Source: Dissulfuribacter thermophilus (GTDB taxonomy: Bacteria > Desulfobacterota > Dissulfuribacteria > Dissulfuribacterales > Dissulfuribacteraceae). Taken from it: a stretch of 64,000 nucleotides of DNA. The stretch lies in contig NZ_MAGO01000006.1 in the NCBI RefSeq assembly GCF_001687335.1, forward strand, positions 124,001-188,000, written 5' to 3'. Shown here piece by piece: positions 46,971 through 62,285 of the stretch. The notes below the pieces were generated by a model. The model saw only the letters and a program-made list of their open reading frames with translations. It was not told where the DNA came from and did no database searches. The first letter of the stretch is position 1. Each line of letters opens with the position of its first letter. The translations under genes were made by a program, and so were the position numbers.

Positions 46971-47047
46971 GCGCCCGTAGCTCAGCTGGATAGAGCGCCG
47001 GACTACGAATCCGTAGGTCGGGAGTTCGAATCTCTCCGGGCGCGCCA
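46971..47047 (+). tRNA. tRNA-Arg (ACG), integration site of the mobile element
   Basis: 77 bases: acceptor GCGCCCG/CGGGCGC, D-arm GCTCAGCTGGATAGAGC, anticodon loop CTACGAA (ACG), T-arm GGGAGTTCGAATCTCTC, encoded CCA. The integrase gene starts 182 bases downstream in the same direction, the classic layout for integration into the tRNA 3' end. The second att copy is not in this window. Confidence 0.97.
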
Positions 47048-47229: not shown

Positions 47230-48309
47230 ATGGAACAAAAATGGAACAAGGCACCCATGGCCCGCATCCGTGTTTATAAAGGAAAATTTCGTACTACTTA
47301 CACGGCAACCGTCAGGATAAAAGGATACGACTCGGTCTCTGCAACATTTGACACAAAAACTGAGGCCAAAAACTGGGCCGCCCAGGTAGAGGCCCAGATG
47401 AGAAGTGGCCGATATATAGATCAGAAAACCGCTAAGAAAATCTCTTTTGCAGAGGCCCTTGATAGATATTTCGAGACTATTTCCTCAATGAAATCTCCCA
47501 ACAGTATGCGTAGAGATAGAGACTCAATAAAAGCAATCAAAGCCAATTTCAATACTTCCTTGACTCTAGCAGACATTACCCCTGAAAAAATTGCAAATTA
47601 CAGAAACAAACGACTGGAACAAGTTGCTCCATCAACTGTATTGAAGGAATTGGTCCTCATTTCTCACCTGTTTAATATTGCAGCTACCGAATGGGGTATC
47701 CCGATAAAAAATCCAGTCAAAAAGGTAAAAAAGCCCAAAGTCGATAATGCAAGGATTGTGTTCCTTTCCGAGTCCGAAATTCAGTGTCTTCTGGAAGCGA
47801 CACGTAAAAGTTCCAATAAAAAACTGTATCCTTATGTTTTACTTTTACTCCATACTGCGATGCGACCTGGAGAAGCCGCTGGTCTCAAGTGGGATCAGGT
47901 AAATTTCGAAGAGAAAGGTATTTTACTAAACAAAACTAAGAACAAGGAACCACGCTGGATACCATTGACCGATTCAGCACAGAAGGTTTTACAGGATTTG
48001 TACGATAAAAGAAATCCAGATTGTAATTGGGTGTTTTTACCCCCCAACCCCCATAAGAGACTGCTACTTATTCCTAGTCAATATTTCAAGAAATCCTGGA
48101 CAACAGCAAAAAAAAGAGCAGGACTAGACCATATTCATATCCACGATCTTAGGCACACGGCAGCATCACATTTATTGAAAGCAGGAGTGGACCTCCGTAT
48201 AGTCCAAGAAATCCTCGGACATAAAACCCTCCAGATGGTGATCCGTTACACTCACATCCTGGATAGCCAGAAACGGGAAGCCATCGAAAAGCTTGATTCT
48301 CTCTTATAA
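47230..48309 (+). CDS. int: Phage/ICE-type tyrosine integrase
   Basis: 359 residues. N-terminal arm-binding domain (YKGKFRTTYTATVRIKGYDS), SAM-like core-binding domain (about 70-160) and catalytic domain with R212 (AMRPGEAAGLKW), H305xxR308 (HDLRHTAASH), H in ILGHKTLQM and nucleophile Y340 (RYTHI). Probably drives site-specific recombination at the adjacent tRNA-Arg. Alternative start: ATG 47257 (MARIRVYKG), which lines up better with short relatives; neither has a good Shine-Dalgarno sequence. Confidence 0.93.
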   Translation: MEQKWNKAPMARIRVYKGKFRTTYTATVRIKGYDSVSATFDTKTEAKNWAAQVEAQMRSGRYIDQKTAKKISFAEALDRYFETISSMKSPNSMRRDRDSIKAIKANFNTSLTLADITPEKIANYRNKRLEQVAPSTVLKELVLISHLFNIAATEWGIPIKNPVKKVKKPKVDNARIVFLSESEIQCLLEATRKSSNKKLYPYVLLLLHTAMRPGEAAGLKWDQVNFEEKGILLNKTKNKEPRWIPLTDSAQKVLQDLYDKRNPDCNWVFLPPNPHKRLLLIPSQYFKKSWTTAKKRAGLDHIHIHDLRHTAASHLLKAGVDLRIVQEILGHKTLQMVIRYTHILDSQKREAIEKLDSLL

Positions 48310-48362: not shown

Positions 48363-49066
48363 CACTACACTTCTCTTTACCTTTTGCAAAACACCGTATC
48401 TTTCCAGCCACTTACGAGTTCCTGAACCCGTATTTTTACCGCTACACATCTCTTTACCTTTTATGGGGCAGGACAAGAAAAATTGGAGTCATTTAAGTGT
48501 GTTGGGACCTGCTACACACCTCTTTACCTTTTGCTACGGTTCTCTTTACCTTTTGCGCTACCTGGCTCTTTACCTTTTGGGAAAATATCGTCAAAACAGG
48601 CCGTTAGGCAGGGAAGGTCTGCTACGATCCACTTTACCTTTTCCCAACACTTTATTTTGACAGCAAAAAAATATCCGTTCGGCGAGGTCCTCGAGGATCC
48701 TGCTACATACCTCTTTACCTTTTGCTACACCTTGCTTTACCTTTGCTAACTTGCCGTTTTTAATACAGAAAAATCGCCAACCATGTTATAGCTATTAGAT
48801 TTTTTTAAATCAAAACAAGTAGTTAGTGCTAGCTACCTTTTTCTTTACGTTTCTGGTTACACATCTCTTTAGTTTTTATGATGGCTACATATATCTTTAG
48901 TTTTCTCAACAGATTGTTTTTACAAGGAAAATGTTTATGGGATAAGGTCTGCTCTTTGAAATAATCTATAATTACAGCTAGTTATCCTTGATACATTATT
49001 CTTTACCTTTTTGCTATCCAATTCTTTGATTTTCATTTCCCTGGCTACAGTTCTGTTTACTTTCGT
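48363..49066. repeat. Iteron-like array of about 14 degenerate 22-23 bp repeats
   Basis: Consensus GCTACA-N4-CTCTTTACCTTTTG. The best copies start at 48441, 48511, 48533, 48557, 48621, 48702 and 48724; further or weaker copies are at 48363, 48832, 48856, 48884, 48990, 49013 and 49044. Where copies abut, the period is 22-24 bp, two helical turns. All are in the same orientation. No coding sequence lies in 48310-49104. The pattern is that of replication iterons or of an operator/centromere array, not CRISPR: spacing is irregular and units are degenerate. Confidence 0.7.
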
Positions 49067-49104: not shown

Positions 49105-51621
49105 ATGTTCGATTTCACGTGGGAATTAGCGGAAAAATTTGGTCTGAGCGAACGGTTTGGAAAAAAACTGGATCATGATAGGCTAGCAGATTTCCTGCCT
49201 TATAGGGCCTGGGACCCGGAAAATTACATTTTTCTCCTAGATCACGGGAAAGAAAACAGGATCGGGTGGTTCTTTGTCTCTGAAGTAACAGTTCCGCCCA
49301 AAGAATCATTCCTCCAGGAATTTGAATCTCTCTTGTCGGTTATGCCGCCCAAAAGTACCGTACAGATACTGATGGCCCAAATGCCCTTTATCGGGGAAAC
49401 GATTTCTGACTTCTTGAAACTCAGGAATAGAACAAAATTAAAAATTTCTGAGGAGAAGCAGAAAGTTTTAACCCACATGATGGCCGAAAAGGCTAAATTA
49501 TACAGAAAACTTACGGAAGGATTACAGGATTCCTCTTACCCACTCCTTTTGAAAAAACCTTACATTTTCTTCAGTTTCACCGTATCTCCTTCTGAACTAA
49601 CTGTAGACAATGTGATAAGTACGATCCAAAAGACTAAAAGCGTACTTCAGACAGCTGGATTCGATACGAAAAAGGGGGTTCCCGCCGACCTTTATAATTT
49701 TATTTACTTTCTATTTAGTGATCCTGAAGGCATCCTCCCCCCCTCCTACACCACTCCATTTAAGGCCTGTCTTACTAATAAAAAATATAAAGCCGATTCT
49801 CTTCTGGAAAATTTATTTATACCTCTCTCAGAATTGATTTCGCCCCCATCCATAGGCATTAAAATAACTTCGGATACCCTTCTAACAAACGCAAACAGAT
49901 TCATTGCCACAGTTTCTTATCGCCAATATCCAGATGCGGTTGAACCTGGTATGGTGGACCGCCTGGTAGGTGATAATAGAAAAACCGAAATCCAGCTGCC
50001 ATATACGGTAATTCACGTCCTAAACATTTATGTTCCGGACCAGATCTCTATAAAATCCAATATCGCTAATAGACATGCAGTAGCAGCGTGGCAAACTTTT
50101 GGTCCTCTCGCCAAATTCAATCCTAAAGTAGGAAAAGTAAAAGATGATTTGGCCGAACTGATGAACAGAGCTGAAAAGGAACTTATCCTTAAGGCTTACC
50201 TGCACACTATTGTACTTGCTAATTCTGAAAAACAGCTCGAAGAGGCCACATATTCATATATCACCCATGCAAAAAGACATGGATTCCTTCCTGTGAGAGA
50301 CAAATTTGTTATGGCCCCTCTACTCCTGAATTCCCTCCCAATGGGTCTATATCCTGATGAGGCACCAAAACTTTTCAGAACAAGAACATTATCATCCTCT
50401 ATGATCGGATGCCTTGCGCCGGTACATGCTGAAGGAGGCAGTTTCGGTAAACCTTATCTTCTTTTCTCCACAAGAAGAGGATATCTGATTACAGGTGATA
50501 TTTTCGCCTCACCTCAGGGATATAACGGCCTTATTTTTGGAGGAACTGGCGGTGGAAAATCCTTTTTTCTCAATGAACTTACGGCCTCATATTTTTCAGC
50601 AGGTGCTAAAATTATTATTCTGGATGTAGGTAAGAGTTTTAAAAAGTTATGTGAAATGCTGGATGGCGAATATATAAACTTTGAAGACACGTCCAATGTA
50701 AATATCAATCCGTTTGCACATCTCTCTGATGATCCTGAACTCCTTGTAGATGACATGGAAATGCTGAAAAATTTTGTGGAATCAATGGCAGCTCCCAAAA
50801 AAGGATTAACTGATTTTCAGATGGGCGCATTGACAGAAATTATCGCTGATGTGGCAGAAAAATACAAACAGGAGACTACCTTTGACCTTATAGCGGAAAA
50901 ACTGGCACAACATTCGGATCACAGAATAAAAGATATTGCCACTATGCTTAAACCTTGGTGTAAAGGTGGAGAAAACTACAGATGGGTGGCTGGAGGCAAA
51001 TCCATAAATTTTGAATCTGACCTCATTGTGATCGAAATGGAAGCATTGATGCAACGCACCCATCTGCAAAAAGTATCGCTATATTATTTAATGTACCGCA
51101 TTTCTCAGGATTTCCTGCTAAAAACCATGAAAGATCCCTCTTTCAGAAAAAAACCAAAATTTTTGTTTATAGATGAAGCATGGGAAGCTTTAAAGACAGG
51201 AACTGCTGATTTTATTGAAAGGGCCTATAGAAGATTTCGCAAAACAGGTTCAGGATGCTGGATTATTACCCAAGGCCCAAGCGATCTAGATGGAAGTGCT
51301 GTCGCTGATGCACTTTGGAATAACTCACACTTCGTAGTCTCCCTAAGAGTGGAAAATTTCAATAAGGAAAAAGCAAAAAAATATCTGTCTGACTATGCTC
51401 TCTCAGTAATTCCTACACTGAAAACTGTTAAGGGCCAGTTCTCCGAAATATACATGAAAACCCCATTCGGTGAAGACATATTAAGATTTTATGCTCCAAG
51501 ATATACCCAACTTGTCTATACAACAGATGCAACTGAATCAGCTATTATTGAAAAACTTCTTGATGAAGGTTTGAGTTATGATCGAGCTCTTCGGAAGATT
51601 ATTGCAATGGAAAAACGATAA
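49105..51621 (+). CDS. VirB4/TraC-family conjugation ATPase
   Basis: 838 residues. The N-terminal half (about 1-440) resembles the TraC/VirB4 N-domain. The ATPase half has Walker A GGTGGGKSF (K485) and Walker B FLFIDEAWEAL (D690, E691), followed by WIITQGPSDL. This is the energy-providing ATPase of F-type type IV secretion. RBS AGAGGAG precedes the ATG. No other pilus or channel gene is visible in the window. It overlaps the next gene by 44 bases. Confidence 0.88.
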   Translation: MFDFTWELAEKFGLSERFGKKLDHDRLADFLPYRAWDPENYIFLLDHGKENRIGWFFVSEVTVPPKESFLQEFESLLSVMPPKSTVQILMAQMPFIGETISDFLKLRNRTKLKISEEKQKVLTHMMAEKAKLYRKLTEGLQDSSYPLLLKKPYIFFSFTVSPSELTVDNVISTIQKTKSVLQTAGFDTKKGVPADLYNFIYFLFSDPEGILPPSYTTPFKACLTNKKYKADSLLENLFIPLSELISPPSIGIKITSDTLLTNANRFIATVSYRQYPDAVEPGMVDRLVGDNRKTEIQLPYTVIHVLNIYVPDQISIKSNIANRHAVAAWQTFGPLAKFNPKVGKVKDDLAELMNRAEKELILKAYLHTIVLANSEKQLEEATYSYITHAKRHGFLPVRDKFVMAPLLLNSLPMGLYPDEAPKLFRTRTLSSSMIGCLAPVHAEGGSFGKPYLLFSTRRGYLITGDIFASPQGYNGLIFGGTGGGKSFFLNELTASYFSAGAKIIILDVGKSFKKLCEMLDGEYINFEDTSNVNINPFAHLSDDPELLVDDMEMLKNFVESMAAPKKGLTDFQMGALTEIIADVAEKYKQETTFDLIAEKLAQHSDHRIKDIATMLKPWCKGGENYRWVAGGKSINFESDLIVIEMEALMQRTHLQKVSLYYLMYRISQDFLLKTMKDPSFRKKPKFLFIDEAWEALKTGTADFIERAYRRFRKTGSGCWIITQGPSDLDGSAVADALWNNSHFVVSLRVENFNKEKAKKYLSDYALSVIPTLKTVKGQFSEIYMKTPFGEDILRFYAPRYTQLVYTTDATESAIIEKLLDEGLSYDRALRKIIAMEKR

Positions 51622-53083
51622 AAAATTCCGTATTGGAACAGGCATTTATCTCAAAGACCTTCCATATCCAGAAGCTACAAAACTCAATATCGACCTTCCA
51701 GAGAAATTTAGAAACGGCCATGTAGGAATATTCGGTACAACAAGGTCTGGGAAAACAAGACTCGCTGAAAATCTGATTGAATGGGACATTAGACAGGGTA
51801 AATCCGTATGGATAATTGATCCAAAAGGAGATATTGAACTCCTTTCAAAGATAATTCAAACCTGTATCCTTACAAACAGACTCGACCACTTCTATTTCTT
51901 CTCACCTTTTCACCTAGATATCTCGGTGAAAATAAATCCTCTGGCGTACTGGGTGATTCCAGAAGAAATAGTGCACCATGTGGCGAGTAGTATTGCTTCC
52001 GGAAAAGGAGATGATGCGGACTTCTTCTACAAGGTGTCGAAAGAGGTCCTCCTTGTTGTGGTACGTTCTCTCCAGGTCCTGGATGTGATTGCCGGAAGAA
52101 CCCCTGAATTCAACCTGGTTCGCCTCAATCATTTCATTTCATACACAGACCTGAAAAAATTATATACTCAGTTAAAACAACTAACCAGTTCCGTGGGAAC
52201 AGTCCATCTCGAAGGACAACCTGTAAAGCAGATAATTGAAAATGAACTTTTACCAAAACTCGCACAAATGCTGGCCCAGAAAGAGGATCACTTTTCAAAG
52301 GTATCTGGTTCTCTTAGAACAGAACTCTCTCAACTCACACTCGGTACCATTAACAGGTTGTTCTCAGATGTAAAAGAAAACCCCATTTTTGAAAGACTTA
52401 TCAATAACCAACCTACCGTATTTTACTGTTCAACAGCCAGCCTTATAACCAGGGATACGGCAAATATCGTTGGGAAAATCATCCTCTCCGGCCTTCAAAG
52501 CATCTCAGGCCATTTCAATGCTGAGGGTAAAAAATTCAATCCCCCTCTTGCAGTACACGTAGATGAAGCCAGCAATGTACTCTATCCAGGAATGGATGAT
52601 TTGTTCAATAAGGCCGGTGGAACAAACGTACATCTAACTCTCCTTACCCAGTCTCTTGCTGATTTTGAAACCGCAATTGGTAAGGCATACTGCCAGAAAA
52701 TACTGGATAACCTGAATACTCAAATCTGGCTCAGAACGGGAAGTAAAGAAACCGCACTATATGTGGCCGATAAGGCCGGTAAGATCAAAACTTACTCCCC
52801 AACTCTATCAATTGGTGGGTTCTCCACGGCAAGAGAAATGGAGAAAAAAGTACTTTCGGATACCGCGCTGACTGAATTTAAACCCAGGGAATTCGTAGCG
52901 TTTATATACGAACAATCATACATGGGCTACACATCCACGGTATCCCCGCTGCATCTAAATCTCATCATGCCCACGCTGAAATGGAAAAAACCCAGTAAGA
53001 ACGATTCGCCAGCAGAAAACGTGCAGGAAGTTCTAAGCGAACCCGATATAAAGAGATTTAGAAGAAGATATTGGGCACACTAA
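51578..53083 (+). CDS. TraD/VirD4-HerA-like coupling ATPase
   Basis: 501 residues. Walker A GTTRSGKTRL (K59), WIIDPKGDIELL strand, Walker B AVHVDEASNVL (D329, E330), LTQSLADFETAIG sensor. This is the layout of type IV coupling proteins (TraD/TraG) and HerA helicases that move DNA. It lacks the N-terminal membrane helices of full-length VirD4, so it would be soluble. It starts inside the end of the TraC-like gene. Whether it serves conjugation or intracellular DNA translocation is open. Confidence 0.85.
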   Translation: MIELFGRLLQWKNDKKFRIGTGIYLKDLPYPEATKLNIDLPEKFRNGHVGIFGTTRSGKTRLAENLIEWDIRQGKSVWIIDPKGDIELLSKIIQTCILTNRLDHFYFFSPFHLDISVKINPLAYWVIPEEIVHHVASSIASGKGDDADFFYKVSKEVLLVVVRSLQVLDVIAGRTPEFNLVRLNHFISYTDLKKLYTQLKQLTSSVGTVHLEGQPVKQIIENELLPKLAQMLAQKEDHFSKVSGSLRTELSQLTLGTINRLFSDVKENPIFERLINNQPTVFYCSTASLITRDTANIVGKIILSGLQSISGHFNAEGKKFNPPLAVHVDEASNVLYPGMDDLFNKAGGTNVHLTLLTQSLADFETAIGKAYCQKILDNLNTQIWLRTGSKETALYVADKAGKIKTYSPTLSIGGFSTAREMEKKVLSDTALTEFKPREFVAFIYEQSYMGYTSTVSPLHLNLIMPTLKWKKPSKNDSPAENVQEVLSEPDIKRFRRRYWAH

Positions 53084-53223
53084 CAAAAATGATTCAAAAA
53101 TATACTCTTAGCTCCCAATTTGAACAAATTTTGTAACATACTGGACTTACAAAAAGACCCGGTATACAAAATTACAAATACTAGAAAGATATTTAATGCT
53201 TTTATGTCAAAAAAGACTGCTCT

Positions 53224-53252
53224 TTGACAATTGGCTATTCTTTATCTTTTAT
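53224..53252 (+). promoter_or_regulatory. Candidate sigma-70 promoter of the ssb module
   Basis: TTGACA (53224-53229), a 17-base spacer, then TTTTAT (53247-53252). The rest of the 53084-53345 gap is AT-rich with repeated CTTTTATC stretches and no gene. Confidence 0.45.
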
Positions 53253-53344
53253 CTTTTATATTCAAACTATTTTCTTTATCTTTCACTTTTATCTAACGAA
53301 CTTTTATCTTTTAACTTTAGGAAAAAGTTAAAAGACTACATCGC

Positions 53345-53435: not shown

Positions 53436-53834
53436 ATGGTAAAATCGGTAAACAAGGTTATCTTAATCGGAAGACTTGGGGCAGACCCAGAAATTCGCTA
53501 CACACAGGCTGGAACGCCTGTAGCAAGCTTTAGAATAGCAACCAACAACCGGATAAAGAGAGGAGAAGAATGGGTAGAGGAACCCGAATGGCATCGCATA
53601 GTTGCTTGGAACAAGCTTGCAGAAATCTGTGAGCAGTATCTCAAAAAAGGAATGCTTGTCTATATTGAGGGTCAGCTTCGTACAAGGGCCTGGGAAGATC
53701 AGGATGGTAATAGGCGTTGGACAACTGAGGTACACGCAAGAGAAATGCAGATGCTTGAATCCAAGGGCTCAGGATCAATGGAAGAAAGCGAGCTTGAGCC
53801 CCCTCCAATTGATGAAGATGATGTGCCGTTTTAA
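53436..53834 (+). CDS. ssb: Single-stranded DNA-binding protein
   Basis: 132 residues, one OB fold (NKVILIGRLGADPEIRYTQ, ASFRIATNN, EWHRIVAWNKLAE, YIEGQLRTRAWED) and the acidic C-terminal tip DEDDVPF that recruits partner proteins. Start ATG 53436 follows AAAGGAGG. A longer frame upstream to 53196 runs through the leader and is not coding. It is shorter than chromosomal SSB of most bacteria, with a very short linker. First gene of the leader-controlled module. Confidence 0.95.
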   Translation: MVKSVNKVILIGRLGADPEIRYTQAGTPVASFRIATNNRIKRGEEWVEEPEWHRIVAWNKLAEICEQYLKKGMLVYIEGQLRTRAWEDQDGNRRWTTEVHAREMQMLESKGSGSMEESELEPPPIDEDDVPF

Positions 53835-53943: not shown

Positions 53944-54726
53944 ATGCAAAATACAAATGAAATCCCCACCCTTGCTCTTAATGTAGAAGAAGTCGAAACT
54001 TTACATTCTGTACCCCAAAATCCACTGGACGAGGCTTTGCCTCTGGAACAGGTCAAGGCCCAAGTCCAGCTTATACAGCGGGTTATGCAGGGGGTAATGA
54101 AAAAGGACGAACACTATGGTGTCATTCCAGGCTCCAGCAAACCCGTCCTTTACAAGGCGGGGGCAGAAAAACTAGCGATGACCTTTCGCCTTGCTCCCAA
54201 ATACGAAATAACTCGCTACGACCTGCCCAACGGGCATAGAGAATACGAGGTAATTTGTCATATATATTCTATCATTTCCGGCAAATTCCTTGGAAGCGGT
54301 ACCGGTAATTGCTCTACACTTGAGAGCAAATATCGTTACCGTAGCGGTCCCATTGAACCTACTGGCAGGCAAGTGCCAAGGAAATACTGGGATCTGCGTA
54401 AAACAAACCCGGAAGCAGCCCAAAAGGTCATCGGCGGTCTTGGATATGCGGTCAAAAAAATCAATGGCCGCTGGGAAATCGTTCGGAAGGGCGAACGTAT
54501 CGAAAATCCGGACCCTGCTGATTGCTGGAATACGGTAAAAAAAATGGCGAAAAAACGTGCGTTCGTTGACGCCATACTAACCGTAACGGCTGCTTCGGAT
54601 ATTTTTACTCAGGACATTGAAGATGAATCCTCTCCACCGGAGGCTGATCCGCCTCAACCGCAACCACAAACGGAAGCCCCTAAGGAATCCGTTTCGGAAC
54701 GGGGAGAGGATGATATACCCTTTTAA
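53944..54726 (+). CDS. Mobile-element protein with SSB-like acidic tip, function unknown
   Basis: 260 residues. The conserved-looking core is DEHYGVIPGSSKPVLYKAG, then AEKLAMTFRLAPKYEI and TGNCSTLESKYRYR. A low-complexity proline/glutamine linker leads to the C-terminus GEDDIPF, almost the same as the DEDDVPF tip of the SSB encoded just upstream. Similar uncharacterised proteins occur in phages and plasmids beside recombination genes. A single-strand annealing or ssDNA-associated role is an inference from position and tip only. Confidence 0.82.
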   Translation: MQNTNEIPTLALNVEEVETLHSVPQNPLDEALPLEQVKAQVQLIQRVMQGVMKKDEHYGVIPGSSKPVLYKAGAEKLAMTFRLAPKYEITRYDLPNGHREYEVICHIYSIISGKFLGSGTGNCSTLESKYRYRSGPIEPTGRQVPRKYWDLRKTNPEAAQKVIGGLGYAVKKINGRWEIVRKGERIENPDPADCWNTVKKMAKKRAFVDAILTVTAASDIFTQDIEDESSPPEADPPQPQPQTEAPKESVSERGEDDIPF

Positions 54727-54883: not shown

Positions 54884-55819
54884 ATGGTAGCATTTGAATC
54901 TTTCATACTTACCAGGCTTCAAGAACTCTCAGCACTTCATACAAAACAATATCTTGGCGACAGAAGCCAATACATCGGGGCTTCAGATATAGGCCACTGT
55001 CCACGCAAGGTTGTACTCTCAAAATTGAATGGAGAGGAAATAGACCTTGCCACTCATATCAAATTCATGAGAGGACACCTAGCTGAAGACCTGGTTGCCG
55101 GGATATATGAGAAATACAACCCCCAACGCCAGGTTGAACTAGAACTCGACGATCCCGTGCCCATCAAGATTCACCTTGATTTACTATTTCAACCCACAAC
55201 CAAACAGGAAGTCGGAGTGATGGAAGTAAAAGCTTCTTCCATTCCTGAGACACCATACGAGTTGTGGGAGATGCAATTACACTTTCAGATGGGCGTGATG
55301 GCAAGGCATACACAAAAGGCCATCAAGGGGGCCATCATAGTAGTGGATCTCAACGACGGTGACATCCGCCGGTTCAACGGCTATACCCCGAATGAGACCA
55401 TCTTCAATGGTCTCCTTAAAAGAGCAAAACATATCTGGGACTGCATTACAGAAGGGACAGAGCCGGAAACGGAAGTCACTCCGCTTTGCGGTTACTGCGC
55501 CTTTATAAAGGATTGTCCAAGATTCCAGGCGGATGAAATACCTGAACTTGCCGGGGATGTGTTGAAGGTCCTGGAGGCCAAAGACAGGAAGAAGGCCTCT
55601 GAAGCGGAATACAAAAGGCTTGCCAGCAGACTTCTTGATATCGTCAAGAAAAAAGGTGCTTTTAAGGCGGGAGGACACAGGATTGACAAGATCGACCGTC
55701 ATTCCACCCGCACGGATTGGAAAAAGCTGGCTGATGATCTGGGGACTATCAACAAGTCCCTAGACGACTATCAGACCAAAAATCCTTATTCGGTCCTTGA
55801 TATCAAGACCTTGCAATAA
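54884..55819 (+). CDS. Cas4/RecB-like PD-(D/E)XK nuclease with Fe-S cluster
   Basis: 311 residues. Nuclease motifs: E68 in GHLAEDLV, D99 in KIHLDLLF, E114-x-K116 in GVMEVKAS, and Q131 in EMQLHFQ. Cysteines C39, C202, C205 and C211 (one N-terminal, three C-terminal) are placed as in Cas4 and AddB, which bind a 4Fe-4S cluster. No cas1 or cas2 is nearby, so a recombination exonuclease acting with SSB is more likely than CRISPR adaptation. The C-terminal 90 residues form a helical extension. Confidence 0.87.
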   Translation: MVAFESFILTRLQELSALHTKQYLGDRSQYIGASDIGHCPRKVVLSKLNGEEIDLATHIKFMRGHLAEDLVAGIYEKYNPQRQVELELDDPVPIKIHLDLLFQPTTKQEVGVMEVKASSIPETPYELWEMQLHFQMGVMARHTQKAIKGAIIVVDLNDGDIRRFNGYTPNETIFNGLLKRAKHIWDCITEGTEPETEVTPLCGYCAFIKDCPRFQADEIPELAGDVLKVLEAKDRKKASEAEYKRLASRLLDIVKKKGAFKAGGHRIDKIDRHSTRTDWKKLADDLGTINKSLDDYQTKNPYSVLDIKTLQ

Positions 55820-55831
55820 TGAAGAAAAAAC

Positions 55832-55906
55832 GCCATCCCGCTGGGGGAGCGCAGACACTCCCCTGGCGGGGGTCTGCCTCCTCCACGGGATGTGAAAGGA
55901 GGCAGA
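55832..55906 (+). promoter_or_regulatory. A-B-C-D switch leader 4
   Basis: A: CATCCCGCTGGGGGAGCGCAG plus AC (55834-55856). B: TCCCCTGGCGGG (55859-55870). C: GTCTGCCTCCTCCACGGGATG region (55872-55892). D: GGAGGCAG (55898-55905). C:D is perfect over CTGCCTCC/GGAGGCAG. A:C pairs over CATCCCG, GGGGGAG and GCAGAC with two bulged C. Confidence 0.7.
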
Positions 55907-57457
55907 ATGAAAATATACACAGACGCCAAGGAACTCTCCAAAATTTTAAAATCTCTGGACTGGAAGATGCCTAGATACTCTCAGGCAATTTTAGATTACG
56001 CCCTAATCAGTTGCGACGATCAGGGCATTCATATTATGAGGAAAGACCTTAATATTTTTCTATCTCACAAGATTTCAGGAGAGATCGAGAAGCAGGGCGA
56101 GGTCCTGGTTCCGGTGAAAAAGGTCCTCACGGTTTTAGGGACCTGCAAAGAGCAAATCCCCCTGGAATACGACGGGGATTACCTGAGAATGGGGAATTAT
56201 GTGCTAGACACCGTTCCAGCACATACAGAAGATTATCCCAAAATCCCCGAAGAAAAATTCAGGGAGATAGGAGTAATTAAAGGCCATGCACTGGCCTACG
56301 CCATTGAGAAATGTAACCCTTTTTTGGGGGATCCAGATAAATATACTCTGCACCACTTCTCATTCGGCCATTACGGCCACATGGCCTCAAGCGATAGTCA
56401 TAGAATATGCCAGGTTCCATTAGAAATTGATTGCCAACTGGTAGTACATAACACCCTGGCATATCTCAAAAAAATAAACCTGGAAGGCGACCTCAAAATT
56501 GCCCATTCGGACAAACACATTCGAATAAAGGGCAACAATTTTGTCGCCTACATCTCCCTAATAGACGGGCAATACCCCCCATATAAGGAGGTAATCCCGT
56601 CAAAAGGGGTTCCTCTAAGAGTAAACGCCGATGACCTTATAGCAACCTTGAAAGAGGCAGTCGCATACTGCAAGGCTGCTACCAAGGAAAAGGATTTCGT
56701 TCCGGTAATCATTCACTGGCTGCAGGATGGCATTAAAGTTGTCGGTAATTTCTCATCCGAACATCGTTTTGAGAAAATGCTGTCAACAGCATTTTCGCAA
56801 ATCCCCGTTTCTGTACCTTTAAATGTCCCGTATTTGCTTCAGGCACTTAAAGGATTAACGGGGGAAATAATTATCTGGTATGCCGGAGATGATAAGCCTT
56901 TTATCATTACAGATGGAGTTACCTATCGGTATATCCAAATGCCCGTTAATATCGAACGTGAAGAAAAAAATGAATATTATGAACTCCCCAAAGACACTCC
57001 TTTGCAGGAGATTCCCTACTCTCCTGATCCTAGTGCAATTCCTGAACCAACCAGAAAAAAAGCCGGTTCAAGGAAGCGCACTGTTAAGAAGGCCGCCAAG
57101 CCTTCTAATAAGAAGGCGTCTTCGGAGCAAGAGGCACAGGGAAAGGCCCTTGCCGAACTCAAAAAACGTCTCGACTTTTGGGAGGCGGAGGCTCTCAAAA
57201 AAGAGGAGCATATCCGCAACCTGGAGGCTGAACTGGCAAAATTGCAGGAGTCCTACAGGGCACTTTTGCAATTCCAGGCCCTGAGGCCAAACGGCAAGGG
57301 TAGATATGCGGTGATAGATGGCCACCAATACCTGTTCTCTCAGGGCAAAATCCTTGATAAGGATGGGAACGAGGTAGGCCACTACAACCGCAAAGGCGGT
57401 GAAATCAACGGCCAGCCATTCAAACTCCAGCAGGAGTGGGTGGTGGCCATGAATTAA
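55907..57457 (+). CDS. DNA polymerase III beta-clamp (DnaN) homologue with coiled-coil tail
   Basis: 516 residues. The first 360 have the three-domain sliding-clamp layout: DYALISCDDQGIHIM, EVLVPVKKVLTVLG, MASSDSHRICQVPL (DnaN ATDGHRL equivalent), and QYPPYKEVIPSK. The C-terminal 150 residues are additional: a basic KKAGSRKRTVKKAAK linker, a coiled coil (about 415-460) and a small beta domain. Start ATG 55907; the in-frame GTG 55892 lies in leader segment C/D. Element-encoded clamps may recruit host polymerase; the tail may tether another factor. Confidence 0.85.
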   Translation: MKIYTDAKELSKILKSLDWKMPRYSQAILDYALISCDDQGIHIMRKDLNIFLSHKISGEIEKQGEVLVPVKKVLTVLGTCKEQIPLEYDGDYLRMGNYVLDTVPAHTEDYPKIPEEKFREIGVIKGHALAYAIEKCNPFLGDPDKYTLHHFSFGHYGHMASSDSHRICQVPLEIDCQLVVHNTLAYLKKINLEGDLKIAHSDKHIRIKGNNFVAYISLIDGQYPPYKEVIPSKGVPLRVNADDLIATLKEAVAYCKAATKEKDFVPVIIHWLQDGIKVVGNFSSEHRFEKMLSTAFSQIPVSVPLNVPYLLQALKGLTGEIIIWYAGDDKPFIITDGVTYRYIQMPVNIEREEKNEYYELPKDTPLQEIPYSPDPSAIPEPTRKKAGSRKRTVKKAAKPSNKKASSEQEAQGKALAELKKRLDFWEAEALKKEEHIRNLEAELAKLQESYRALLQFQALRPNGKGRYAVIDGHQYLFSQGKILDKDGNEVGHYNRKGGEINGQPFKLQQEWVVAMN

Positions 57458-57469
57458 ATCTAATTTCAA

Positions 57470-57550
57470 TCCCATGATCCCATGCGGGAGAAGACGTGTT
57501 TTTCTCCCGCATGGGAGGAGTCATGTCTTCTCCCGCTGAAAGGAGGAGGC
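57470..57550 (+). promoter_or_regulatory. A-B-C-D switch leader 5
   Basis: A: CCCATGCGGGAGAAGAC (57479-57495). B: TCTCCCGCATGGG (57503-57515). C: GTCTTCTCCCGC (57525-57536). D: GGAGGAGGCAT (57542-57552), which reaches into the start codon. A:B is a perfect 13-bp stem, A:C a perfect 12-bp stem, C:D 11 bp with two G-U pairs. Confidence 0.75.
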
Positions 57551-57872: not shown

Positions 57873-58649
57873 ATGTATTATTTAACAAATGAAGAAATTA
57901 TATCTTTGGCCCCGGCAGCAGGAGCACAAGCTCCTATAAGAGGTGTATCAGAACGATATTCTTTCATTCCTACAATAGAAGCCGTTGATCTGTTACGGGA
58001 TGTCGGCTGGTTCCCTGTGGGTGTTCATCAGAGTCAAGTAAGAAAAGAAGAAAGGGATGGTTACCAGAAGCACATGATTCGTTTTGTGAAAGATGGGCTT
58101 TCGTTTGGTGGAGAACGCATTGATCTTGTTCTGTATAATTCTCACGATAGAGGTTGTTCTTTTCAGTTGATTGCATCAGTATGGCGAAAAATATGCGGAA
58201 ATGGCTTAATGGTGGCCTCTGACTTTGCAAATTTTACCCATAAACACATTGGATTCAATCCAGATGAATTTGTCAATTCGGCGAATAAGATTGTAGCAGT
58301 AGCTGATAATATTGCAGAATCCGTTGAAATGATGAAAACTATTGAGCTTACGCGAGATGAACGTAGTATATATGCTCAGGCGGCACATAGTCTTGTTTAT
58401 GAAGTCCCTGAGCAAGCGCCAATTCGACCAGAACAATTACTGCAAGAACGCCGCTATGACGACAATGGGAAAGATCTTTGGACCACATTTAATGTGGTCC
58501 AGGAAAACCTTATGAAAGGCGGTCTTACATATACTACAAAAAGTGGACGCAAAAGGCGTTCACGGCCTGTAAAATCGCTTGATCGTAATCTAAGACTAAA
58601 TAAGGCCCTATGGTTGCTCACAGAAAAGATGGCGGAGCTTAAAAGTTAA
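57873..58649 (+). CDS. DUF932 phage/plasmid-like protein
   Basis: 258 residues. YSFIPTIEAVDLLRDVGWFPV near the N-terminus, MIRFVKDGLSFGGERIDLVLYNSHDRGCSFQL and GNGLMVASDFANFTHKHIG match the DUF932 family common on plasmids, ICEs and phages. Biochemical role unknown. Last gene with a full switch leader. Confidence 0.85.
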   Translation: MYYLTNEEIISLAPAAGAQAPIRGVSERYSFIPTIEAVDLLRDVGWFPVGVHQSQVRKEERDGYQKHMIRFVKDGLSFGGERIDLVLYNSHDRGCSFQLIASVWRKICGNGLMVASDFANFTHKHIGFNPDEFVNSANKIVAVADNIAESVEMMKTIELTRDERSIYAQAAHSLVYEVPEQAPIRPEQLLQERRYDDNGKDLWTTFNVVQENLMKGGLTYTTKSGRKRRSRPVKSLDRNLRLNKALWLLTEKMAELKS

Positions 58650-58933: not shown

Positions 58934-59071
58934 ATGTGTGCATGGTGCGGAAAAATACTGGAACACCTCTATTCGAGGGATTCTCACGGCATTTGCCCGG
59001 TCTGCGCCAAAGTAGGGCAGGCCAGGGCGGAGACTTTTTTAAAAGAGCAAAAACAGGAGCAACAAAAATGA
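58934..59071 (+). CDS. Small zinc-ribbon protein
   Basis: 45 residues: CAWCGK then HGICPVCAKVG, two CxxC pairs that could hold one zinc, followed by a charged helix (ETFLKEQKQEQQK). AGGAGGA lies just before the ATG. Size and composition resemble small DNA- or protein-binding zinc ribbons on mobile elements. A longer frame from 58877 lacks a ribosome site. Confidence 0.65.
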   Translation: MCAWCGKILEHLYSRDSHGICPVCAKVGQARAETFLKEQKQEQQK

Positions 59072-59495: not shown

Positions 59496-62285
59496 ATGAG
59501 AAGACTGAAAATCGTAGCTTCTGGAAAAAGTAGACAAGAAGAGGCTCAAAAAAGAGGAAAATTATTTGAAGAGTTAATGGCAAAGGTGCTGCGACATTAT
59601 GGCTATAACATAAATAAACATAAAACAAATGTAAATTATGCTGGCATGGAAATTGATATAGAAGGAGAGGCGCGTATCGCTGGAATACCCCTTTTCGCAG
59701 AATGTAAGTGCTATGGTTCTGACATTACTGCGGAAAAATTGCAAACATTTTTTGGAAAATATATGAGCTTTTGGTTAAAAGATAATAAGAGTGAAGGGCT
59801 CTTTATTGCAATACCAGGAGTCAATAGTCACGCAAGAGGATTTTATAACGAAAATTGCAAATCAAATAGTCAAATTTCAATAAAAATCATCGAAGAACCC
59901 GATATTATAGATATTATAATAGATAGTGGATTAATTATTAATGAAGCAGAAATTGATAAATTGATTAAAGATGATCTAGTCCCGGGTGATAGAATTTTAA
60001 TATATAGTGACAAAGGACTATTCTGGCTTCAATATTTAATTTCTAAAGGTTCCACTCTCCCAACAAAAGTTCAAATATTTGATTCTAAAGGAAATACAAT
60101 AACTGATAATGATTCTCGTGAATACTTTATAAAATTACTTCCTGAAATTAAAGATTTTGAGTTTACAAAAGAAGATGGAAATATTTTATCTACTGAAGAA
60201 AAAGAGCTTATAGTTGAATTAAGAGGAAGTTCTGCCTATTTTGAATACCAATTTCCAGCGAATCCTCAGTTCTTTATTGGCAGGCAACAACTTGTTTCAG
60301 ATATAGATAATTTTTTTAATGACGTTATTAATCACAATGCTTCATTAAGAAGCATTTTATTTGAAGCTAATTCTGGATGGGGGAAGAGTTCTCTTGTTTT
60401 AAAAATTGTTTCCCGTCTTAAAGAACTTGGACATTATGCTATAGCAATTGATTCTAGATCAGCTTCAAGTGCTCAATTTATTTTACATGCTATAGAGCAT
60501 ATAATTAAGAAATTTGGCAATTTCAATAACCTGATTGAGGAAGAACCTGTAATTACTGGATTTGAGGGAGTAATTAACGCATTAATTAAAATAGGAAATG
60601 CACTAAAAAGTCAGAAAAAACTATTGTTAGTGTTTTTTGATCAATTTGAAAATATTTTCTATCTAGAAGAAGTATTAGTTAAAATTGTACAACTTATTTT
60701 AAAAATCACAGATATTCAAACTAATATTATACTTGGCTTTTCTTGGAAAACAGATCTAGTGGGATTAACATCCGAATTCCCATATAAATGGAGAGATAAA
60801 ATTGTTGAGTCTAGTCAAGTATTTCATTTAAAACAATTTTCAGAAGTAGAAACCAATATTCTTTTGGACAAATTATCTGATGAGCTTCATGCTAAATTGA
60901 GGAAAGACCTGCGTTTTTTAATATCGGAGTTTTCTCAAGGATATCCTTGGCTACTTAAAAAGTTATGTGCTCATGTAAAAAAACAGAGAGAAAATGGTGT
61001 CCCACAGGCAGATATGGTAAGGGGGCTTCTAAATGTAGAACAACTTTTCTTAGATGACTTAGAAGGATTGACACCAGAACAAGAAGAAGCATTAAGACAA
61101 ATTTCTAAACAAGCTCCCATTAATATTTCTGAAATAGGAGAAGAACTTTCACCGACCGTTATACAGACTCTAGTTGACCGAAGATTGATAGTCAGAGTTG
61201 GAACTAAATATGATATTTATTGGGATATTTTTAGAGATTATCTTAATACAGGTAAGCTACCAATTGAAGAGGTTTATCTTCTAAGATCCTCTGTTGGGAG
61301 TGTTTTTAAAGCAATTACAATATTGCAAAACAATAATGGTAAATTACTAATACATTCTTTCAAAGAACAAGCAAATCTTTCTGATGGAGCTTTTTTAAAT
61401 ATCGCTCGCGATCTTCGTTTACTTAAAATTGTAAAAATAGAAAATAATAATATTGTTCTCATGTTACCAATAGGAACAGATGAATCAGAACTATTACAGA
61501 ACTTTCGTAATTACTTAAATGATCATTTATTGAGAAATCGATATATCTTTAATGTTGTACAACTTATCAAGGATAAAGGAGAAATAAGTATTTATGATTT
61601 AGCACATATACTTCAAAGTGAATTCCCTTATATCTCTGCTTCTGAGAAAACATGGATAACATATGCAAAAATATTAGCCGGTTGGCTCGACATAGCTGAT
61701 TTAGCAATATGGGATAAATCAAATGAAAAGTTGATAAAATTTAAGGCTGGTACTCAGGTTAGAGATCATTCATTAGTATTTGCAAAAAAAAGAACTAGAT
61801 TATCAGTTCCTTCTATACAATTTGCACCAATTTGTGAAGTAGCAAAACGCCTTGTAACAGCAGCAAAAAATAATGAGCCGGTGAATTGGTCAGGTTTGTC
61901 AAAGAGTACGATTTACAAGTCGCTTGCTATGCTTGAAGAAATGAATTTAATTAGGAGAGAAGCAAAAACACTTACAATTTTACCTGATTGTTATGACTTT
62001 ATAGATAGAAGAAACACTTTGAAAATTGTTAAAGATATAGTTACTAAATGGAAAATTTTTAAATCATTTATTGAAATTCTTAATGAGAATCATAATAATC
62101 GATTAACTCATGTCCAACTAGGTAAATTGTTAATTAAAAAATATTCTCTTGAATGGAAGCTTTCAACTGCAGAGACAAATGTGAAAATAATGCTAGACTG
62201 GGCAAGACATCTTAATCTTGCTCCTGGAGTTTTTTCTCATACATATAGAGGGAAATTTAAAGCTAAGGATAACAAAGTGAACTAA
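59496..62285 (+). CDS. PD-(D/E)XK nuclease-STAND ATPase, probable anti-phage defence protein
   Basis: 929 residues. The N-terminal nuclease (about 18-130) has GKLFEELMAKVLRHYGY, D54 (MEIDIEG) and E69-C-K71 (FAECKCYG), as in Mrr/Cap4-type restriction nucleases. The NTPase (about 265-500) begins with FIGRQQLVSDI and has Walker A NSGWGKSS (K297) and Walker B VFFDQFENI (D382, E385), typical of STAND/NACHT switches. The C-terminal 400 residues contain several winged-helix segments instead of the long repeat sensor of Avs proteins. Much richer in A/T than its neighbours. It may degrade DNA after sensing a phage product; this is inference. Confidence 0.8.
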   Translation: MRRLKIVASGKSRQEEAQKRGKLFEELMAKVLRHYGYNINKHKTNVNYAGMEIDIEGEARIAGIPLFAECKCYGSDITAEKLQTFFGKYMSFWLKDNKSEGLFIAIPGVNSHARGFYNENCKSNSQISIKIIEEPDIIDIIIDSGLIINEAEIDKLIKDDLVPGDRILIYSDKGLFWLQYLISKGSTLPTKVQIFDSKGNTITDNDSREYFIKLLPEIKDFEFTKEDGNILSTEEKELIVELRGSSAYFEYQFPANPQFFIGRQQLVSDIDNFFNDVINHNASLRSILFEANSGWGKSSLVLKIVSRLKELGHYAIAIDSRSASSAQFILHAIEHIIKKFGNFNNLIEEEPVITGFEGVINALIKIGNALKSQKKLLLVFFDQFENIFYLEEVLVKIVQLILKITDIQTNIILGFSWKTDLVGLTSEFPYKWRDKIVESSQVFHLKQFSEVETNILLDKLSDELHAKLRKDLRFLISEFSQGYPWLLKKLCAHVKKQRENGVPQADMVRGLLNVEQLFLDDLEGLTPEQEEALRQISKQAPINISEIGEELSPTVIQTLVDRRLIVRVGTKYDIYWDIFRDYLNTGKLPIEEVYLLRSSVGSVFKAITILQNNNGKLLIHSFKEQANLSDGAFLNIARDLRLLKIVKIENNNIVLMLPIGTDESELLQNFRNYLNDHLLRNRYIFNVVQLIKDKGEISIYDLAHILQSEFPYISASEKTWITYAKILAGWLDIADLAIWDKSNEKLIKFKAGTQVRDHSLVFAKKRTRLSVPSIQFAPICEVAKRLVTAAKNNEPVNWSGLSKSTIYKSLAMLEEMNLIRREAKTLTILPDCYDFIDRRNTLKIVKDIVTKWKIFKSFIEILNENHNNRLTHVQLGKLLIKKYSLEWKLSTAETNVKIMLDWARHLNLAPGVFSHTYRGKFKAKDNKVN

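Follow-up and report, generated by a model that had tools for sequence, protein, structure and literature searches.

Gene content of the element

The window, a 64,000-nucleotide stretch of Dissulfuribacter thermophilus DNA, contains a tRNA-Arg(ACG) gene with an encoded CCA (46971-47047), which is the presumed attachment site of an integrated element and the sole match in an Rfam scan. It is followed by a gene for a 359-aa tyrosine integrase (47230-48309), a gap occupied by a repeat array, and genes for an F-type TraC/VirB4 ATPase of 838 aa (49105-51621) and a TraD-like ATPase of 501 aa (51578-53083). Further downstream lie genes for a single-strand binding protein (ssb; 53436-53834, its start re-assigned from a long open reading frame), a phrog_10048 protein (53944-54726), a Cas4/RecE-like nuclease (54884-55819), a DNA polymerase sliding-clamp-like protein (55892-57457) and a DUF932 protein (57873-58649), and all of these features are on the + strand. 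The integrase gene adjoins tRNA-Arg, the tRNA-gene setting of a self-transmissible F-type integrative conjugative element (ICE).

Several of the products have features of their own. The TraD-like ATPase covers only positions 164-584 of SXT_TraD, the N-terminal part being absent, and has no strongly hydrophobic segment; it is possibly not a membrane coupling protein. The clamp-like protein is extended at its C terminus by a coil and domain (about 160 aa), and beyond its gene a palindromic sequence, GGGAGAAGACATGTCTTCTCCCGCAT, is repeated at 57486-57536, ahead of a 53-aa open reading frame. Downstream of the DUF932 gene, a small zinc-ribbon open reading frame (CAWC...CPVC; 58935-59071) may encode an element protein that binds DNA. 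At 59496-62285 lies a gene for a 929-aa protein with Mrr-type nuclease and STAND-type NTPase domains, which looks like an anti-phage defence gene and has no PADLOC match. We found no relatives of TraC or of the clamp-like protein in viral contigs, and none in a search for relatives of the TraD-like protein. At the four DUF932 loci examined, both the other element genes and a tandem array were absent.

The right arm of the element is lost at the end of contig C6, which stops 2.1 kb past the window; a caspase-like peptidase gene (L010:2-2059) reaches to about 30 bp from this end. The 18-bp 3' segment of the tRNA gene occurs once in the genome, and the contig pieces examined for attR (contig ends and small contigs among the stretches read) contained no match of at least 15 bp, so the element is at most putatively mobile. 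The mating-pair apparatus is incomplete, with TraC present and TraU not found in the host assembly. Given that TraU, TrfA, Rep_3 and a second tRNA 3' end were not found, the element is incomplete as assembled here, through either decay or a break in the assembly, and its right end may be unassembled.

Layout of the repeat array

A bipartite scan identified 14 non-overlapping copies of the 22-bp unit GCTAC-N5-TCTTTACCTTTT at 48364-49065, within the gap between int (ending at 48309) and traC (starting at 49105), with all 14 on the + strand and none on the - strand. A 15th, weaker match overlaps site 14 and was left out of the count. The first eight sites are near perfect. Site 1 (48364-48385) reads ACTAC-ACTTC-TCTTTACCTTTT; sites 2 (48441-48462), 3 (48511-48532), 4 (48533-48554), 5 (48557-48578) and 7 (48702-48723) are perfect; site 6 (48621-48642) has one mismatch and site 8 (48724-48745) two. 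Site 4 abuts site 3 at 22-bp spacing, and site 8 likewise abuts site 7. The last six sites are more degenerate, with two mismatches in site 9 (48832-48853), three each in sites 10 (48856-48877) and 11 (48884-48905), one in site 12 (48990-49011), five in site 13 (49013-49034), the weakest, and four in site 14 (49044-49065), from which the traC start codon is 39 bp on.

Start-to-start spacing is 22-31 bp within groups of sites and 64-108 bp between groups, so that the copies are scattered rather than in tight tandem. The GCTAC block, ten bases upstream of the CTTTACCTTTT core, is almost equally conserved. A 46-bp block at sites 3-4 is repeated at sites 7-8 with 87% identity, which indicates that the array probably grew in part through local duplication. 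The proximal cores show no clear 10.5-bp period that would indicate helical phasing. The A+T content is about 0.7 at 48751-49000, a stretch without assigned strand, compared to 0.52-0.60 in the proximal array, and this A+T-richer stretch is a possible unwinding region.

To assess significance, we compared the array region with 500 dinucleotide-preserving shuffles of itself: 13 sites have four or fewer mismatches, whereas the shuffles average 0.11 such sites and contain at most 2. (An early count of 10-mers on Markov resamples controlled poorly for the T-richness of the region.) We also built a scoring matrix from the eight proximal copies, holding out the distal ones. Four held-out distal copies score 10.2-17.0, while the best score elsewhere in the window, on both strands, is 8.4; the distal copy at 48884 scores only 7.0. 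On the basis of the shuffle counts and the held-out scores, we rejected chance or low complexity as the origin of the array.

These results bear out much of a preliminary description of this DNA, which had proposed about 14 same-orientation repeats between an integrase gene and a TraC-like gene, degenerating towards 49066. Its repeat length of 22-24 bp holds for the unit and for the closest spacing but not as a tidy tandem, and the core that it named is conserved but forms only part of a longer conserved site that includes the GCTAC block.

The distal array also contains a boxA-like antitermination sequence, TGCTCTTTGAAA (48950-48961, + strand), in the leader of traC, and a boxA antitermination sequence, TGCTCTTTGACA, precedes ssb in the sense orientation (53218-53229). 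Both are exact, and no other match to YGCTCTTTRAMA exists in the window, whichever strand is read; Nus-type antitermination may be used for the long operons of the element. Directly after the ssb boxA, at 53240-53318, lies a pyrimidine-rich TCTTTATCTTTT tract that is similar to the latter half of the array site (15.3 bits) but has no GCTAC block. Stable RNA structure in the array leader was considered and rejected, as the leader folds worse than its shuffles.

The array is confined to one locus

With at most one mismatch allowed, the bipartite site has eight matches in the 2.52-Mb host assembly, and all eight are in the array. An exact 14-mer has a single match outside the array in the host assembly, on contig C4, in an apparently coding stretch on the reverse strand that is topA-like by eye. 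We therefore rejected a genome-wide interspersed repeat, the copies being confined to one locus of the host genome; scattering through the host genome is what the preliminary description had set against its own proposal, and every match to the full pattern lies in the array.

None of 394 other genomes from the phylum contains the array; each has 0-2 isolated site matches. A two-core pattern searched in genomes and viral contigs matched at least 182 loci; none of those examined had a related array, and the richest loci among the matches listed are low-complexity or unrelated tandem repeats. The bipartite pattern has six single matches in viral contigs, and blastn of the array against plasmids gave no match.

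Related elements carry TrfA and 22-bp iterons

TraC and the phrog_10048 protein, used as queries, led us to two related ICEs, one on G202:C29 and one on G362:C1. Both have traC in common with the element, as well as its ssb/phrog_10048/Cas4-like gene order; the ICE of G362 carries TraB (TrbI), TraK, TraN, TraU and TraG. In both, a TrfA gene is directly followed by about six tandem 22-bp iterons and then by a DnaA-box-like sequence with one mismatch, and neither has an array ahead of traC. The two are thus like the element studied here in being F-type-T4SS integrative elements with the same ssb, phrog_10048 and Cas4-like genes, and in having 22-bp sites at a closest spacing of 22-24 bp in one orientation. 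They differ in that their iterons are about six tight tandem copies accompanied by trfA and a DnaA-box-like sequence, whereas the 14 sites here are scattered, differ in sequence and have neither. A short TraD-like homologue also lies near ssb in the G202 ICE.

A phylum-wide search found TrfA in ten genomes. At the TrfA loci that we read, an array of period 22/23 lies directly downstream, except at one full-length copy (L328) and one partial fragment (L327). With a period-22 array at nearly all TrfA loci inspected, iterons of such length and spacing are the rule for TrfA replicons in the phylum, and because relatives of the element pair such iterons with TrfA, the site length and closest spacing of our array match those of a replication-initiator array. 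When the array motif was compared with the iterons of the relatives, the best p value, about 0.01 (G202), came from one of seven comparisons and is not significant after correction; we describe a weak resemblance in sequence and do not claim homology. Two further loci (L307:1510-2580 and L315:18097-19061) are F-type ICEs with TrfA, 22-bp iterons and an actin-like gene nearby, and these are plasmid-type replicons inside integrated elements of the phylum.

The host assembly itself gave no match to TrfA or to Rep_3, in agreement with the preliminary description, which had recognized no Rep protein; in a search for RepA_C, the controls gave no signal. No credible DnaA box was found at the array within one mismatch. 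A likeness to the iterons of Acinetobacter Rep_3 replicons (TTTACCTT) was considered at first and dropped because no Rep_3 gene was found here. The array also follows int and is not beside a rep gene, whereas TrfA-type arrays sit directly downstream of trfA. Three usual companions of a vegetative origin (oriV) are thus missing at the array, namely a rep gene in cis, a DnaA box and a tight tandem arrangement. The several direct repeats of about 17-24 bp that mark an oriV are present as 14 sites of 22 bp.

Integrative elements with an iteron-containing oriV or with TrfA are established in SGI1 (PMC7433901) and in the yicC-specific islands (PMC8409611). SGI1 is integrative, encodes part of a T4SS and depends on a helper for its replication; its oriV is located in the intergenic region between xis and rep, and the island has four 17-bp iterons and a DnaA box as well as a rep gene of its own (PMC7433901). 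By analogy, we regard SGI1 as the closest published parallel: both elements are integrative, carry some of the T4SS genes and have an iteron-type array close to their integrase end, but SGI1 has fewer and shorter iterons together with the DnaA box and the rep gene, and no rep was found in the element here. The oriV of IncA/IncC plasmids has a comparable number of repeats (11-14 iterons, each of 19 bp) but differs in sequence, in having one DnaA box and in belonging to a plasmid with a rep gene (PMC7433901). The yicC-specific SGI1-like islands, which are integrative and helper dependent, carry a gene for a plasmid initiator, TrfA (PMC8409611), whereas in our element no initiator was found.

Discussion

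The length and bipartite form of the sites, their 22-bp packing, single orientation and number, their restriction to the element, and the arrays of its relatives together favor an initiator-binding array over any other single explanation. We propose, with a probability of roughly 45%, that the array consists of initiator-binding sites (of oriV or incompatibility type) in an element that is partial or has decayed and whose initiator has been lost, is unassembled or is supplied in trans. The presence of an SSB and a clamp-like protein encoded by the element itself also counts in favor of this reading. The ligand would be a protein of replication-initiator type, the past or present purpose of the array would be replication or copy control, and the initiator would have been lost or would come from outside the element.

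As we envisage it, the array would belong to an ICE inserted at tRNA-Arg. The GCTAC and TCTTTACCTTTT blocks, which are about one helical turn apart, could be contacted on one face of the DNA by a two-domain winged-helix initiator, and sites packed at 22 bp would place bound initiator molecules side by side. In an excised circle, binding would open the adjoining A+T-rich stretch, limit copy number, or both. Most likely the initiator has been lost and the array is decaying along with the element; otherwise, the initiator may be encoded on the unassembled right arm or provided in trans by a helper element. An initiator or regulator array on an integrated element, as the preliminary description had suggested, is thus in keeping with the anatomy of the locus, the integrase at tRNA-Arg and the related ICEs with TrfA and 22-bp iterons, but its initiator was not found. 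The further suggestion of plasmid-like replication after excision is unsupported, as we found no attR in the stretches searched and no DnaA box, TrfA, Rep_3 or TraU.

Because the array fills the whole leader of traC and has a boxA-like sequence inside it, the main rival explanation is an operator array, through which an activator or repressor encoded by the element or a helper would control a traC-traD-ssb unit from a promoter in or before the gap. The array fills the only gap ahead of traC, ending 39 bp before the start codon, and the boxA-like sequence at 48950 and the one before ssb suggest a transcribed, regulated leader; in SGI1-type elements, moreover, tra, rep and xis genes are under the control of an AcaCD-type activator (PMC8409611). 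However, 14 sites across 700 bp is a large number for an operator. A search of the gap revealed no sigma-70-like promoter, the array has no regulator gene next to it and the sites are not repeated ahead of other element genes, and we consider this explanation unlikely, if still worth weighing.

A smaller chance falls to an array that is kept without a recognizable initiator gene, and that replicates or blocks a competitor only with the initiator of another element, or else is served by an initiator of an undescribed family among the element's own genes (for example, the DUF932, phrog_10048 or zinc-ribbon protein). A centromere, at which a partition adaptor would segregate the excised circle from parS/parC-like sites, seems to us just as improbable. 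Plasmid centromeres typically consist of directly repeated unidirectional sites, as the array does, and one related ICE has an actin-like gene a few genes past its iterons. However, no partition gene was recognized in the available part of the element, and the recognized array of the related ICEs follows trfA and not a partition gene.

The single orientation of the sites, directly ahead of two conjugation ATPase genes, would also suit a transfer origin or translocase-loading region, read by a relaxosome protein or by the TraC/TraD-like ATPases to orient DNA export. With no relaxase recognized in the part of the element within the window, no TraU in the assembly and no array ahead of traC in the related ICEs, this is very unlikely. 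Less probable still is a function at the RNA level, with the repeats acting as pyrimidine-rich boxA-like sites in the nascent traC leader (CTCTTTACC, compared to boxA GCTCTTTAAC). The sense-only orientation of the repeats, the two exact boxA matches in element leaders, a leader RNA that folds less well than shuffles (z = +1.9) and the TCTTTATCTTTT tract after the boxA ahead of ssb are consistent with such a function, but boxA features neither GCTAC nor the TTTACCTTTT half, the bipartite site is absent from the ssb leader, where the best full score is -0.8, and the fixed N5 gap and 22-bp closest spacing are better suited to DNA recognition. Arm-type sites of the integrase or an excisionase, suggested by the adjoining integrase gene, have next to no likelihood, as over 1.3 kb separates the array from tRNA-Arg, where attachment is presumed to occur, whereas known arm sites are few and no more than a few hundred bp away from the att core.

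It is under active investigation whether integrative elements replicate in the way that plasmids do. The array described here is clear, unusually large and lineage specific, and it is carried by an ICE-like element whose relatives have TrfA and iterons. With it, there is a concrete DNA probe to search for the missing initiator or to demonstrate that such an array can outlive its initiator.
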